Below, piece by piece: positions 13,918-19,262 of a stretch of DNA of 64,000 nt. Every line of letters starts with the position of its first letter. Position 1 is the first letter of the stretch. The notes beneath the pieces are model-generated. The model was not told the DNA's origin. It made no database searches and was given only the letters and a program-made list of their open reading frames with translations. The DNA comes from an uncultured beta proteobacterium (GTDB lineage Bacteria; Pseudomonadota; Gammaproteobacteria; Burkholderiales; SG8-41). Where the stretch lies: assembly GCA_903933915.1 (NCBI GenBank), contig CAIZLW010000082.1:1-64000 (forward strand), in the 5' to 3' direction. The translations under genes were made by a program, and so were the position numbers.

Positions 13918-13931
13918 TTAATCTAGGTCAA
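13918..13931 (+). promoter_or_regulatory. FNR/ANR-like box upstream of frdABCD-rquA
   Basis: TTAATCTAGGTCAA matches the FNR consensus TTGAT-N4-ATCAA at 8 of 10 fixed positions; GTCAA half-sites are also tolerated by ANR/DNR-type regulators. It is centred 93 bp before the frdA GTG, and a -10-like TTAACC lies about 40 bp downstream of the centre, as for class II activation by FNR. Confidence 0.5.
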
Positions 13932-14017
13932 ACACAGGGCGTCCGGCACCGCTTAACCTGCCCGTTATCGTTTGGCGGCCCTGGCTTGAGGCCGCCGCAA
14001 ACTCGGGAGCGGACTTG

Positions 14018-15808
14018 GTGGAAACAATAAAAACAGATGTTGCCGTTCTGGGGGCTGGTGGCGCAGGCCTGCGTGCAGCCATTGCGCTTGCTGAAGCGCG
14101 ACCCGCGCTGAAAATTGCCCTGGTGTCCAAGGTTTACCCGATGCGCAGCCACACCTGCGCGGCCGAGGGTGGCGCGGCGGGGGTGATCAAATCCGATGAC
14201 AGTCTGGATCATCACTTCCACGATACGGTCGGTGGCGGCGACTGGCTGTCGGATCAGGATGCGGTGGATTATTTCATCCGCGAAGCACCCAAGGAGTTGC
14301 TGCAGCTCGAACACTGGGGCTGTCCGTGGAGCCGCGAAGCCAACGGCTCGGTGGCGGTGCGGCCGTTCGGCGGCATGAAAAAGCAGCGCACCTGGTTCGC
14401 CGCCGACAAGTCCGGTTTCCATATTCTGCACACGCTGTTCCAGACTTCGTTGAAGTTCCCGTCGATCCAGCGCTTTGACGAGTATTACGTCACCGACCTG
14501 GTGATCGAAGACGGCCGTTGCCGGGGTTTCACGGCGATCGAGATGCGCAGCGGTCAGATGAAATTTTTCCGCGCCAATGCGGTGATTATCGCCAGCGGCG
14601 GTGCTGGGCGCATGTTCCCGTTCACCACCAACGGCGCGATTAAGACCGGCGACGGCATGGCGCTGGCCTACCGCGCCGGCGTGCCGCTGAAAGACATGGA
14701 GTTCGTGCAGTACCACCCGACCGGCCTGCCGAACACCGGCACGCTGCTGACTGAGGCCTGCCGCGGCGAAGGCGGCATCCTGGTCAACAAGAATGGGCGC
14801 CGTTTCCTGCAGGACTACGGCATGGGACCGGAGACGCCGGTGGGCAAGCCGGTGCTTAAGACCATGGAGCTCGGGCCGCGCGATCGCGTCAGCCAGGCGT
14901 TCTGGCACGAACAGAAAAAGGGCAATATGGTGTCGACCCGCTGGGGAGACTGCATGATGCTCGATATGCGCCACCTCGGCGAGAAAACCATCAACGAGCG
15001 CCTGCCGCTGGTGCGCGACATGGCGACCAGTTACCTCGGCGTCGACCCGGTGACCGATCCGGTGCCGGTGCGGCCGGTGGTGCATTACATGATGGGCGGC
15101 ATCGATACCGATATCAACGCGGCGACCTCGGTGCAGGGTCTGTATGCGGCCGGCGAGTGCGCCTGTGTCAGCATCAACGGCGCCAACCGGCTGGGTTCCA
15201 ATTCACTGACTGAGTTGCTGGTATTCGGCCGGCGCGCCGCACTGAGCGCAATCGAGCATCTGGATGGCGGCACCGGCACGGCAAACGAGGCGGCGGTGAG
15301 CGCGGGTGCGGATGGCGCACAGGCGCGCCTGCGTGAGTTGTTTAATCGCACCGGCGGGACTGAAACCATTGCCGGGGTGCGCCGCGAAATGATGGCGACG
15401 ATGGAAGAGAACGCCGGCATCTATCGCAGCGGTGAAGGTCTGGAAAAGGCCTGCGCCACACTGTCTGCATTGCGCCAGCGTTATGCCGGCATCGAATTGC
15501 ATGACAAGACCAATGTTTACAACACTGACCTGCTGCAGGCGCTGGAGTTGGGTGCAATGCTGGACTGCGCCGAAGCGGTGACGGTTGGCGCGCTGGAGCG
15601 GCGCGAATCGCGCGGCGCCCATCAGCGTCTGGATTTTACGGCGCGTGATGATGACAAGTATCTGCGCCACACGCTGGCCCGTTATCGCAGCGACGGTCCT
15701 CCGGAGATCGGTTATTCCGACGTGGTGATCACCCGTTCGCCGCCCGGCTTACGTGATTATTCAGGGGAAAAAAGCGCAGGCGAAAATAATGCGGGAGAAC
15801 AGAAATGA
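14018..15808 (+). CDS. frdA: Fumarate reductase flavoprotein subunit
   Basis: 596 residues from the GTG preceded by GGGAG; a TTG one codon earlier is the alternative. The family is clearly FrdA of the E. coli type: [16 protein letters not shown] for FAD, the covalent-FAD histidine in [14 protein letters not shown], and the diagnostic [20 protein letters not shown] followed by DYGMGPE and [10 protein letters not shown]. The C-terminal [20 protein letters not shown] closes the flavin site. FrdA reduces fumarate to succinate in the cytoplasmic domain of the membrane complex. It is first in a tightly packed operon: frdB overlaps its end by 4 nt, and frdC, frdD and rquA follow without gaps. An FNR-like box upstream fits oxygen-limited expression. 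Confidence 0.96.
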
Positions 15809-16548
15809 GCGAACGCATCGTCGAGCTGGAGGTGCTGCGCTACAACCCGGAAACGGACAGCGAGCCGCGGTATCAGCGTTACAGCGTGCCCTGCATGAAC
15901 GAATGGGTGGTGCTCGATGCGCTGAATCACGTCAAGGAATCCATCGATCCGACGCTGAGTTACCGCTGGTCCTGCCACATGGCCGTTTGCGGCAGCTGCG
16001 GCATGATGATCAACGGCGAACCGAAACTCGCCTGCAAGGCTTTTTTGCGTGAATACGACGGGGTGATCCGCGTCGAGCCGCTGGCCAATTTCCCGATCCA
16101 GCGCGACTTGGTGACGGTGATCGACGATTTCGTCAACAAGCTCAAGCGCGTCAAGCCGTATCTGATTCCGAAAGAAGACCCTCCGGCGGAGGCGGGCGAG
16201 TTCCGGCAATCGCCGGCTGAACTCAAGCGCTACAAGCAGTACACGCTGTGCATCAACTGCATGCTCTGTTATGCGGCTTGCCCGGAATACGGGCTGGTGC
16301 CCAAGTTCATCGGCCCGGCGGCGATTTCACTGGCGCATCGCTACAACGAGGATTCGCGCGACGGCGGACGCGAAGAGCGGCAGCAGGAAATCGCGTCGAA
16401 CGAGGGCGTCTGGGAGTGCTCCTTCGTCGGTGCCTGCTCCGAAGTCTGTCCCGAGCATGTCGATCCGGCAGGGGCGTTGCAGCAGATCAAGATTAAGAGC
16501 ACGGTGGACTGGTACAAAGAACACGTGATGCCCTGGAGCAAAAAATGA
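15805..16548 (+). CDS. frdB: Fumarate reductase iron-sulfur subunit
   Basis: 247 residues. All three clusters are visible in order: the [2Fe-2S] ligands in [21 protein letters not shown] with a later AC, the [4Fe-4S] ligands in [15 protein letters not shown], and the [3Fe-4S] ligands in [17 protein letters not shown]. The linking stretch [19 protein letters not shown] is characteristic of FrdB. It passes electrons from the quinol site in FrdCD to the flavin of FrdA. The start ATG overlaps the frdA stop (ATGA), which implies translational coupling. Confidence 0.97.
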
Positions 16549-16943
16549 GCGCGAACGGCAAACCCTACGTCCGTGAAGTGTCCCGCTACGGCTGGTTTTT
16601 GCGCAATCCGCGGTACCGGCGTTACATGGCGCGTGAAGTCACCTGCGTATTCATCGGCCTGCATGCGCTGATTCTGCTGGTGGCACTCAAGCGCCTGTCC
16701 GAAGGGCGCGAAGCCTGGGAGGCCTTCCTGCACAACCTGACCGGACCTGCCGGGGTCGTGCTACAACTGGTCATTCTCGCCTTTGCGGTCTATCACTCGA
16801 CGTCCTGGTTCAATGTCACGCCCAAGGCGATGCCGGTGCAGATCGGAGAACAGTTTCTGCCGGGGGCGGTGATCGTCGGCGCGCATTATGCGGCGTGGCT
16901 GATCGCGACTGTGGCAGTGCTGTTTCTGGCGGGAGCGTTCTGA
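16545..16943 (+). CDS. frdC: Fumarate reductase membrane anchor subunit C
   Basis: 132 residues with three hydrophobic segments. The N-terminal KPYVREVSRYGWF and YRRYMAREVTCVFIGLHAL align with the E. coli-type FrdC start, including the glutamate in MARE that corresponds to the Glu reported to act in quinol chemistry in FrdC; the YHSTSWFNVTPKAMP stretch matches LLHTKTWFELAPKA. FrdC and FrdD anchor the complex and form the quinol site; this four-subunit class has no haem. In this window the quinol used is proposed to be rhodoquinol, because rquA closes the operon. The start overlaps the frdB stop by 4 nt. Confidence 0.93.
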   Translation: MSANGKPYVREVSRYGWFLRNPRYRRYMAREVTCVFIGLHALILLVALKRLSEGREAWEAFLHNLTGPAGVVLQLVILAFAVYHSTSWFNVTPKAMPVQIGEQFLPGAVIVGAHYAAWLIATVAVLFLAGAF

Positions 16944-16944
16944 A

Positions 16945-17286
16945 ATGGCCAAATCCAATAAACCGATTATCTGGGGATTGTTTGCCGCCGGCGGCACGGT
17001 GACGGCGTTTCTGACGCCCGCATTGGTCCTGTTAACGTTGCTGCCGGTTTTCGGCGTGATGCCCGAGTTGCTGGCCTACGACAATCTGCGGGCTTTTGCC
17101 GGCCACTGGTTCGGCAAACTGGTGCTGTTCGGGATACTCTTTCTGATGATGTGGCATGCCGCGCACCGCTTGCGTGTCACGCTCCACGACTTTGGTGTGC
17201 GTGCGGACGGCGTCGTTGCTGTCGCGGTTTATCTGGCCGCTGCCGCGGGTACGCTGGCCGCGGGTTATTTCCTGTTGAGAGTCTGA
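16945..17286 (+). CDS. frdD: Fumarate reductase membrane anchor subunit D
   Basis: 113 residues with three membrane segments, as in FrdD: FAAGGTVTAFLTPALVLLTL, LVLFGILFLMMWHAAHRLRV and VAVAVYLAAAAGTLAAGYFL. The start KSNKPIIWGLFAAGGTV and the central MMWHAAHRLRVTLHDFGV match the family. It follows frdC after 1 nt. With FrdC it forms the membrane domain of the quinol:fumarate reductase at the cytoplasmic membrane. Confidence 0.93.
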   Translation: MAKSNKPIIWGLFAAGGTVTAFLTPALVLLTLLPVFGVMPELLAYDNLRAFAGHWFGKLVLFGILFLMMWHAAHRLRVTLHDFGVRADGVVAVAVYLAAAAGTLAAGYFLLRV

Positions 17287-17287
17287 G

Positions 17288-18031
17288 ATGACAAAAGCAG
17301 TTGCCGTGCGCCGTATCGACGGAGAGGGTGTCGCTGTGTCTGCGCCGGCGCTGAAGGCGCCGGTACCCATGCCGCTTTATCTCGAACAGACTTACTGGTG
17401 GGCTTACGTACACCCCAATGCGGTGCGAGTCTTCGAGCGACAATGGCTGGTCAACCTGATCCTGTGGGGCAATTACAGCCGGTTGCGTGATGCGGCCCTC
17501 CGTGAATTGCATGCACCGATCGCCGGAAAAGTGCTGCAGGTGGCTTGCGTCTATGGCGACTTCACCGAAATGCTGGCTCGCCAACTGGGGGCGCAGGGTA
17601 CGCTGGACGTGGCGGATGTGGCGCCGGTGCAGATCGACAATCTGAAGCGCAAGATCAACGGCCATCCGCGGGTCGCCGTGCATCATCAGGATTCCGGCGA
17701 TCTGGCGTTTAGTGATGCAAGTTACGACTATGTCGTGCTGTTTTTCCTGCTCCATGAAATGCCCGAGGCGGTACGGGTGCGCACGGTGGCCGAGGCCTTG
17801 CGTGTGGTCAAGCCCGGCGGCAAGGTTGTTTTTGTTGATTACCATCGCCCGCACTGGATGAATCCGTTCCGTTATCTGATGATGCCCATCCTTGCCTGGC
17901 TGGAGCCGTTTGCGATGGATCTGTGGCGGCGGCAAATCATCGAATGGATTCCATCTTCGATGCGGCCGGCGCAGGTGGATAAATGCACTTACTTCGGCGG
18001 GCTTTACCAGAAAGTGGTGATTACGCGTTGA
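17288..18031 (+). CDS. rquA: Rhodoquinone biosynthesis protein RquA (methyltransferase-like)
   Basis: 247 residues, fifth gene of the fumarate reductase operon, starting 1 nt after frdD. The sequence has the RquA signatures as I know them: PLYLEQTYWWAYVHPNAVRV, FERQWLVNLILWGNYSRLRD, a non-canonical SAM loop KVLQVACVYGDFTEML instead of a GxGxG, then VVLFFLLHEMPEAVRVRTVA, ALRVVKPGGKVVFVDYHRP and the ending TYFGGLYQKVVITR. RquA converts ubiquinone to rhodoquinone, replacing a methoxy by an amino group with S-adenosylmethionine as nitrogen donor. Rhodoquinone has a low potential suited to driving fumarate reduction. The alternative is an ordinary class I methyltransferase, but the loop, the ending and the operon position all argue for RquA. 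Confidence 0.85.
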   Translation: MTKAVAVRRIDGEGVAVSAPALKAPVPMPLYLEQTYWWAYVHPNAVRVFERQWLVNLILWGNYSRLRDAALRELHAPIAGKVLQVACVYGDFTEMLARQLGAQGTLDVADVAPVQIDNLKRKINGHPRVAVHHQDSGDLAFSDASYDYVVLFFLLHEMPEAVRVRTVAEALRVVKPGGKVVFVDYHRPHWMNPFRYLMMPILAWLEPFAMDLWRRQIIEWIPSSMRPAQVDKCTYFGGLYQKVVITR

Positions 18032-18122: not shown

Positions 18123-19262
18123 ATGACGGTATCTGGAAAACAGCCCTTCGAAGTCATCCTGGAAATGCTGCGGATGATGGTGGATCGCAAGGCCTCCGAT
18201 CTTTTTATCAGCGTCGGTTTTCCGCCGGCAATGAAGGTCGATGGGCAGGTGACGCCGATATCAGAGCATGTGTTCAACGAGTTGGAAACCAAGGCCTTTG
18301 CCCGTGCGCTGATGAGCGACAAGCAGCTCGCCTCGTTCGAAGCCACCAAGGAGTGCAATTTCGCGATCGCGCCCGCCGGCATTGGCCGTTTCCGCGCCAG
18401 CGCTTATTTCGACCAGAACGGCGCGGGCCTTGTCCTGCGAACCATCAATACCAGGATTCCGACGCTCGACGAACTTGGTCTGCCGCCCATCCTCAAGGAT
18501 GTGGCGATGTCGGCGCGCGGGCTGGTGATGGTGGTGGGGGGTACCGGTTCGGGCAAGTCGACCAGCCTCGCCGCCATGATCGGTTATCGCAACGAGAATA
18601 GCCGTGGCCACATCATCACCATCGAAGACCCGGTGGAATTTGTTCATGAGCACAAGCACTGCATCGTCACCCAGCGTGAGGTGGGCATCAATACCGATTC
18701 ATGGGAGGTGGCGCTCAAGAACACGCTGCGGCAGGCGCCAGATGTCATCCTGATCGGGGAGGTGCGCGACCGCGAAACCATGGAGCATGCCATCGCGTTT
18801 GCGGAAACCGGCCACCTGTGCTTCGCCACGCTCCACGCCAACAGCGCCAACCAGGCGCTTGACCGCATCATCAATTTCTTTCCGGCGGAGCGCCGTCAGC
18901 AGCTGCTGATGGACCTGTCGCTCAATGTGCGCGCGTTTCTGTCGCAGCGGCTGGTGCCGCGCGAGAGCGGCAAGGGGCGGGTGGCTGCGTTCGAGATCAT
19001 GCTCGATTCACCGCTGATCAAGGATATGATCTTCAAGGGCGAGGTACATCAAATCAAGGATCTGATGACGCGCTCGGTGGAGCTGGGCATGCAGACCTTC
19101 GATAAGGCGCTGTTCGATCTCTACCAGGCGCGCATCATCAGCTACGAGAGCGCGTTGCGCTTCGCCGATTCAGCTAACGATCTGCGCCTGCACATCAAGC
19201 TTGAACCGGGAGGGCGAAAGCCCGAACGCAGCGGCGACGCCAGCGACCTGCAGGTGATGTAG
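18123..19262 (+). CDS. pilU: Type IV pilus retraction ATPase PilU
   Basis: 379 residues of the PilT/PilU family. The N-terminal domain begins FEVILEMLRMMVDRKASDLF, which is PilU-like rather than PilT-like. The C-terminal domain has Walker A GGTGSGKSTSLAAMIGYRNE, the IITIEDPVEFVH Asp box and the LIGEVRDRETMEHAI Walker B region, followed by the LCFATLHANSANQALDRI His box. PilU is a cytoplasmic hexameric ATPase that assists PilT in pulling back type IV pili during twitching motility. No other pilus gene is in the window and pilT is not adjacent, as pilT would typically be just upstream. It lies 92 bp after rquA, probably as a separate unit. Confidence 0.93.
   Translation: MTVSGKQPFEVILEMLRMMVDRKASDLFISVGFPPAMKVDGQVTPISEHVFNELETKAFARALMSDKQLASFEATKECNFAIAPAGIGRFRASAYFDQNGAGLVLRTINTRIPTLDELGLPPILKDVAMSARGLVMVVGGTGSGKSTSLAAMIGYRNENSRGHIITIEDPVEFVHEHKHCIVTQREVGINTDSWEVALKNTLRQAPDVILIGEVRDRETMEHAIAFAETGHLCFATLHANSANQALDRIINFFPAERRQQLLMDLSLNVRAFLSQRLVPRESGKGRVAAFEIMLDSPLIKDMIFKGEVHQIKDLMTRSVELGMQTFDKALFDLYQARIISYESALRFADSANDLRLHIKLEPGGRKPERSGDASDLQVM

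Follow-up and report, generated by a model that had tools for sequence, protein, structure and literature searches.

Results

The window, a 64,000-nucleotide stretch of the genome of an uncultured betaproteobacterium, contains five co-directional genes in the order frdA-frdB-frdC-frdD-rquA (14018-18031, forward strand), all of them assigned unambiguously by NCBIfam and Pfam. The frdA gene (14018-15808) encodes 596 aa from a GTG start, a position kept as GTG or TTG in congeners, with an alternative TTG at 14015. Its product gives 950.6 bits against the fumarate reductase equivalog NF006686 (cut-off 854) vs 596 bits against the succinate dehydrogenase (SDH) model, and is 58.9% identical to E. 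coli FrdA. It is followed by frdB for the iron-sulfur subunit (15805-16548; NF009051, 364.7 bits, cut-off 333; 54.7% identity to E. coli FrdB), the membrane anchor genes frdC (16545-16943; PF02300, 125.9 bits) and frdD (16945-17286; NF003977, 91.1 bits, cut-off 60; PF02313, 105.2 bits), and rquA (17288-18031; NF038261, 319.7 bits, cut-off 175), whose product we call RquA1. The genes overlap by 4 nt at frdA/frdB and frdB/frdC and are separated by 1 nt at frdC/frdD and frdD/rquA, the last junction reading TGA-G-ATG, and they probably form a single transcription unit. Congeners with 76-92% RquA identity have the same gene order and again a single nucleotide between frdD and rquA, and in the most distant congener locus (L030) the gap is 1-4 nt. 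As order and gap recur in diverged congeners and the pairwise dN/dS of rquA1 among congeners (0.08-0.19) indicates purifying selection, the arrangement is not a product of chance. An earlier note on this DNA had described a complete E. coli-type four-subunit fumarate reductase followed after 1 nt by an RquA-like gene, and both gene calls and family scores agree with it; the first coordinate that it gave, 13918, is not a gene start but marks where a conserved FNR-like box begins. On the same strand, 91 nt downstream of rquA, there is a PilT/PilU-family pilus ATPase gene (18123-19262), which is missing at this position in some congeners (L018, L020); a terminator between the two genes was looked for and none was found.

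With the order frdA-B-C-D, two anchors of the FrdC and FrdD families and equivalog matches for FrdA and FrdB, the complex belongs to the E. coli-type quinol:fumarate reductases. In alignments to the E. coli proteins, FrdA keeps the FAD-linking His45 together with H233, T245, E246, R288, H356 and R391, and FrdB keeps 11 of 11 cysteines as well as K229 and Q226. The E. coli quinol-site pair R29-E30 (R28/E29 in mature numbering) is kept as R30-E31 in FrdC, while FrdD keeps the quinol-site Trp and the H-R pair; the roles of these residues, catalytic or at the quinol site, we take to be those established for the E. coli enzyme. A separate SdhA (44% identity) is encoded in the same genome, on contig C207.

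For RquA1 the next best family is MenG/UbiE-like, with 64 bits. Its SAM motif I is altered (VLQVACVYGD vs VLDLAGGTGD in UbiE), and the SAM-pocket residues D110 and D135 are 25 residues apart, as are D118 and D143 of Rhodospirillum rubrum when the published positions are compared without alignment (PMC9814641). In a tree of 69 rows it is nested within the RquA proteins, with the E. coli UbiE/UbiG outgroup far away, so that the RquA features noted before are borne out by both score and tree position. Among solved structures the matches were generic methyltransferases only, and on plasmids no match covered 80% of the query and none reached 60% identity.

Upstream of frdA there is an FNR-type box, TTAATCTAGGTCAA (13918-13931, forward strand), with two mismatches to the consensus TTGAT-N4-ATCAA, and a -10-like hexamer TAACCT (13954-13959, forward strand), in which TA..CT is invariant in the upstream alignment of the congeners. 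If transcription starts near 13966 the box would be centred at -41.5, a class II spacing that is read from the coordinates of a degenerate box and a presumed start. The window holds 20 matches to the FNR box where 16.1 are expected, and a single match is thus no better than chance. In the seven congeneric frd loci, 10 of the 14 columns are invariant in 7/7, which makes it the best-conserved 14-column block upstream of frdA, and three congeners have the box with one mismatch, as do L036 and L043, two sister loci in betaproteobacteria. The genome also encodes an FNR orthologue with 49% identity to E. coli FNR and four cysteines, the N-terminal CxxC-x5-C cysteines and that of VCEIP. At frd-rquA loci of other genera a box with at most two mismatches occurs in 8/38 (shuffles gave 7.6%), and an FNR box as a general feature outside the genus was rejected. 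Because of the congener footprint and the FNR orthologue, FNR control of the operon is likely, yet the box is mostly absent at distant loci and such control is not general.

The window's genome is a 3.80-Mb MAG of 246 contigs with 7.19% contamination, and its nearest named relatives are uncultured Burkholderiales MAGs; we compared it with 20 congeners, giving a genus set of 21 genomes. FrdA (87-100% identity; 87-96% in the other congeners) and RquA1 occur in the same 7/21 genomes, and the other 14 have neither. The probability of this coincidence in random draws is 1/116,280, a figure to be read with the non-independence of genomes that share ancestry in mind. When frd-rquA adjacency was surveyed in GTDB contigs, as the earlier note had proposed, 54 of the 80 nearest rquA loci had frdD (of frdABCD or its truncated end) immediately before rquA, among them loci of Competibacteraceae and of Rhodoferax-related and other betaproteobacterial MAGs. 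The 1-nt junction is typical of the genus; at other loci most gaps are tens to hundreds of nt long. Distances of FrdA and RquA are correlated (Mantel r 0.81, 45 loci, 0/2000 permutations). A single clade of all frd-linked RquA was rejected (p-AU 1e-6): Rhodoferax and DsrJOP-type loci without the frd linkage fall among them, and so the linkage has changed several times. In a class survey of 369 genomes, 37 have RquA at E <= 1e-30, and rquA shares a contig with a strong FrdC match in only three of them (G000, the window's genome, G088 and G219), G231 having the two on different contigs; the link is therefore a feature of one part of the RquA tree. In the class, the majority of genomes with rquA have no strong frdC match, so rquA does not depend on frd as a partner.

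Some of the other loci deserve mention on their own account. The Competibacteraceae, glycogen-accumulating wastewater bacteria, widely carry frdABCD-rquA (within L025-L104), and a literature search found no paper naming both Competibacter and rhodoquinone. In Gammaproteobacteria rquA also stands behind DsrJ/O/P-like genes (L080:6733-12223, also L077, L099 and L108, the last with at least an NrfD-like gene), in L080 before a sulfide:quinone-oxidoreductase-like gene, and it is possible that rhodoquinone is linked with sulfur metabolism at loci with such gene content. NirT-type cytochrome genes adjoin rquA in L073. A MAG recorded as 'Bordetella parapertussis isolate MH-09jul19-114' (L027) clusters with this uncultured genus, and its name looks mislabelled.

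A second protein, RquA2, is encoded on the reverse strand of contig C39 of the window's genome (5654-6475, L013), with 54% identity to RquA1 and about 284 bits to the family model. The same gene is found in the congeners G011, G016 and G020 (L014, L015, L016), whose assemblies have 1-4% contamination, and a binning error is therefore unlikely. Of the seven congeners with RquA1, four have RquA2 as well and three (G002, G014, G018) have RquA1 alone. Two RquA in one genome is the sole case among the 37 rquA-positive genomes of the class survey, and a literature search found no paper describing a bacterium with two rquA; the ciliate Spirostomum is known to have multiple copies. RquA2 is under purifying selection (dN/dS 0.11-0.15) and branches outside the mainly frd-linked clade; the tree speaks against a recent duplicate without rejecting a shared origin within the genus (p-AU 0.098). 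In the window's genome an Asn replaces the second SAM-pocket Asp, which G016 and G020 keep.

No frd lies beside rquA2. Only a few nt behind it is a gene for a PF03364 START-domain protein, a domain family to which the ubiquinone-binding COQ10 proteins also belong, and the locus, upstream of earP-efp, also packs a 490-aa protein of no known family. A DmsABC/Soe-like molybdoenzyme operon is near rquA2 in G011, G016 and G020, and in the window's genome it is split over contigs C149 and C39. We rejected RquA2 as a member of a second reductase operon, because congeners that lack rquA2 still have the molybdoenzyme operon with its EarP and EFP flanks, and because there are about 700 nt between the DUF2726 gene and rquA2. 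At the matching place G018 has a cold-shock gene, the upstream sequence of which recurs upstream of rquA2. The molybdoenzyme operon itself (L015:1752-6327, with equivalents in 20/21 congeners) encodes a 963-aa subunit, an Fe-S subunit and a DmsC-type anchor; the large subunit is without an obvious Tat signal and looks cytoplasmic, and the operon may possibly encode a SoeABC-like sulfite dehydrogenase. In G011 there is also a third, deeper RquA-like protein (L017:8452-9243, contig C3) with an N-terminal hydrophobic segment and the motif TSCAFGN, which gives 114.5 bits to the RquA model, below the cut-off of 175, and has no reductase beside it.

Gene absences were judged by family searches, which for menaquinone covered MenD and PF02621 (MqnA/D). 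MenD was above the curated cut-off in 0/21 genus genomes, and no true MqnA/D was found in the 21, the PF02621 matches being weak and partial; the one in the window's genome was rejected as a secreted substrate-binding protein with a signal peptide. Ubiquinone synthesis is represented by UbiA (332.9 bits, cut-off 275.45) and two oxygen-dependent Ubi hydroxylases (409.9 and 333.6 bits, cut-off 224.65). The suggestion that this is a ubiquinone-only bacterium thus holds for the pathways searched, in the genome and in its 20 congeners, and rhodoquinol is therefore the only low-potential quinol predicted. UbiU/UbiV (PF01136) had no match in the genome, and G011 is the sole carrier among the 21. These proteins are a usual but not universal companion of rquA, present in 73 of 84 rquA genomes (PMC11707229). 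Without them, synthesis of the ubiquinone precursor must depend on oxygen.

Discussion

We consider it highly probable, judging from the sequence, that the locus is an FNR-type-regulated operon for rhodoquinone-linked fumarate respiration, and the earlier interpretation mostly stands. When oxygen falls, FNR would switch on one transcript for FrdABCD and RquA, and RquA would convert ubiquinone to rhodoquinone (about -63 mV) by exchanging a methoxy group for an amino group from S-adenosylmethionine. Complex I and similar dehydrogenases would reduce it to rhodoquinol, which FrdABCD would reoxidise with fumarate, while the separate SDH and ubiquinone would handle aerobic succinate oxidation. As the genome has an oxygen-dependent but no oxygen-independent ubiquinone pathway, rhodoquinone would be drawn from ubiquinone made during oxygen supply, which would suit fluctuating oxygen. 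The "anaerobic switch" proposed before is thus kept in the pairing of RquA with FrdABCD, but it would not be self-sufficient anaerobically, since it converts a pre-existing pool. Likewise, the operon does contain a source of the quinone, but not the only one: with RquA2 present, the rhodoquinone supply may not depend on it.

The E. coli fumarate reductase is able to oxidise succinate with ubiquinone when it is expressed aerobically, and the complex could in the same way work mainly as a succinate dehydrogenase linked to ubiquinone, or as a complex II for low oxygen, with rquA riding along and its product serving other rhodoquinol-linked enzymes; the DsrJOP-like, sulfide:quinone-oxidoreductase-like and NirT-type cytochrome genes that take the place of frd beside rquA at other loci would fit with that. 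We find this improbable, because the genome has a separate SdhA, FrdA scores far above the SDH model, and frd and rquA1 have been gained or lost together in the genus with correlated divergence. Still less probable is that RquA2 supplies the rhodoquinone and the operonic RquA1 is redundant or decaying. The selection on RquA2 and its presence in more than half of the genomes with RquA1 could be taken that way, but RquA1 is equally constrained, and three congeners manage with RquA1 alone.

That the last gene encodes an ordinary quinone methyltransferase and not an aminating RquA is hardly credible, although RquA1 also has weak matches, of 64 bits and below, to MenG/UbiE models. The score to the RquA equivalog is 319.7 bits, the disrupted motif I and the aspartates are as in R. 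rubrum, and the protein groups within RquA. By analogy, the activity of RquA confirmed experimentally in 15 species, leaving aside their relation to the branch of the window's protein, also argues for amination (PMC11707229).

Rhodoquinone-linked fumarate respiration, the reading that we prefer, leaves room for a further role of the second protein. We suggest, tentatively and with the odds somewhat against it, that the two divergent and separately located RquA make rhodoquinone in two regulated ways from an aerobic ubiquinone pool, without an oxygen-free ubiquinone route, one under FNR control with the fumarate reductase and RquA2, with the START-domain gene downstream, in another role. A genome with two RquA and no UbiUV is a natural test of the need for stored, aerobically made ubiquinone. 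The operon shows that synthesis and use of a low-potential carrier can be tied together in a unit of five genes, which related genomes keep or lose as a whole. It has been asked whether the gain of a low-potential quinone came together with that of fumarate reductase (PMC11707229), and in this genus the genomic answer is yes, in 7/7 genomes.

The pairing of rquA with complex II has been known since 2018, and the operon is a well-supported example of a known arrangement. In many bacteria, Stairs et al. found rquA no more than 15 genes away from genes of complex I, II or III; they proposed an operon of rquA with complex II genes, gave the redox logic, and reported that 12 of the bacteria have a second frd/sdh operon (PMC5953543). 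Their loci differ from the one described here, which has a 1-nt junction, a conserved FNR-like promoter and a second rquA in the genome. They also found no organism with both Group A and Group B rquA (PMC5953543), and this is not contradicted, because RquA1 and RquA2 lie together in one of the tree's two large groups; a reading of the two as Group A plus Group B was not supported. What is new is mostly detail: the tightness of the unit, the conservation of its promoter, its presence whole or not at all in the genomes of the genus, a second rquA, and the reliance on aerobically made ubiquinone.

The established reaction of RquA is the conversion of ubiquinone to rhodoquinone with an amino group from SAM (PMC9814641). 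RquA1 shares with the R. rubrum family (NF038261) the altered motif I and the spacing of the acidic pair, at a score well above the cut-off. Unlike in R. rubrum, the gene is directly behind frdABCD, in a genome with two copies, and its function is read here from sequence. The quinol:fumarate reductase of E. coli (1kf6/1l0v) has the same four-subunit architecture and gene order, with 59, 55, 34 and 34% identity for FrdA to FrdD, and its cofactor and quinol-site residues are kept. The E. coli enzyme is a menaquinol user without rquA, whereas here rquA is the fifth gene of the operon, in a genome where no menaquinone genes were found.
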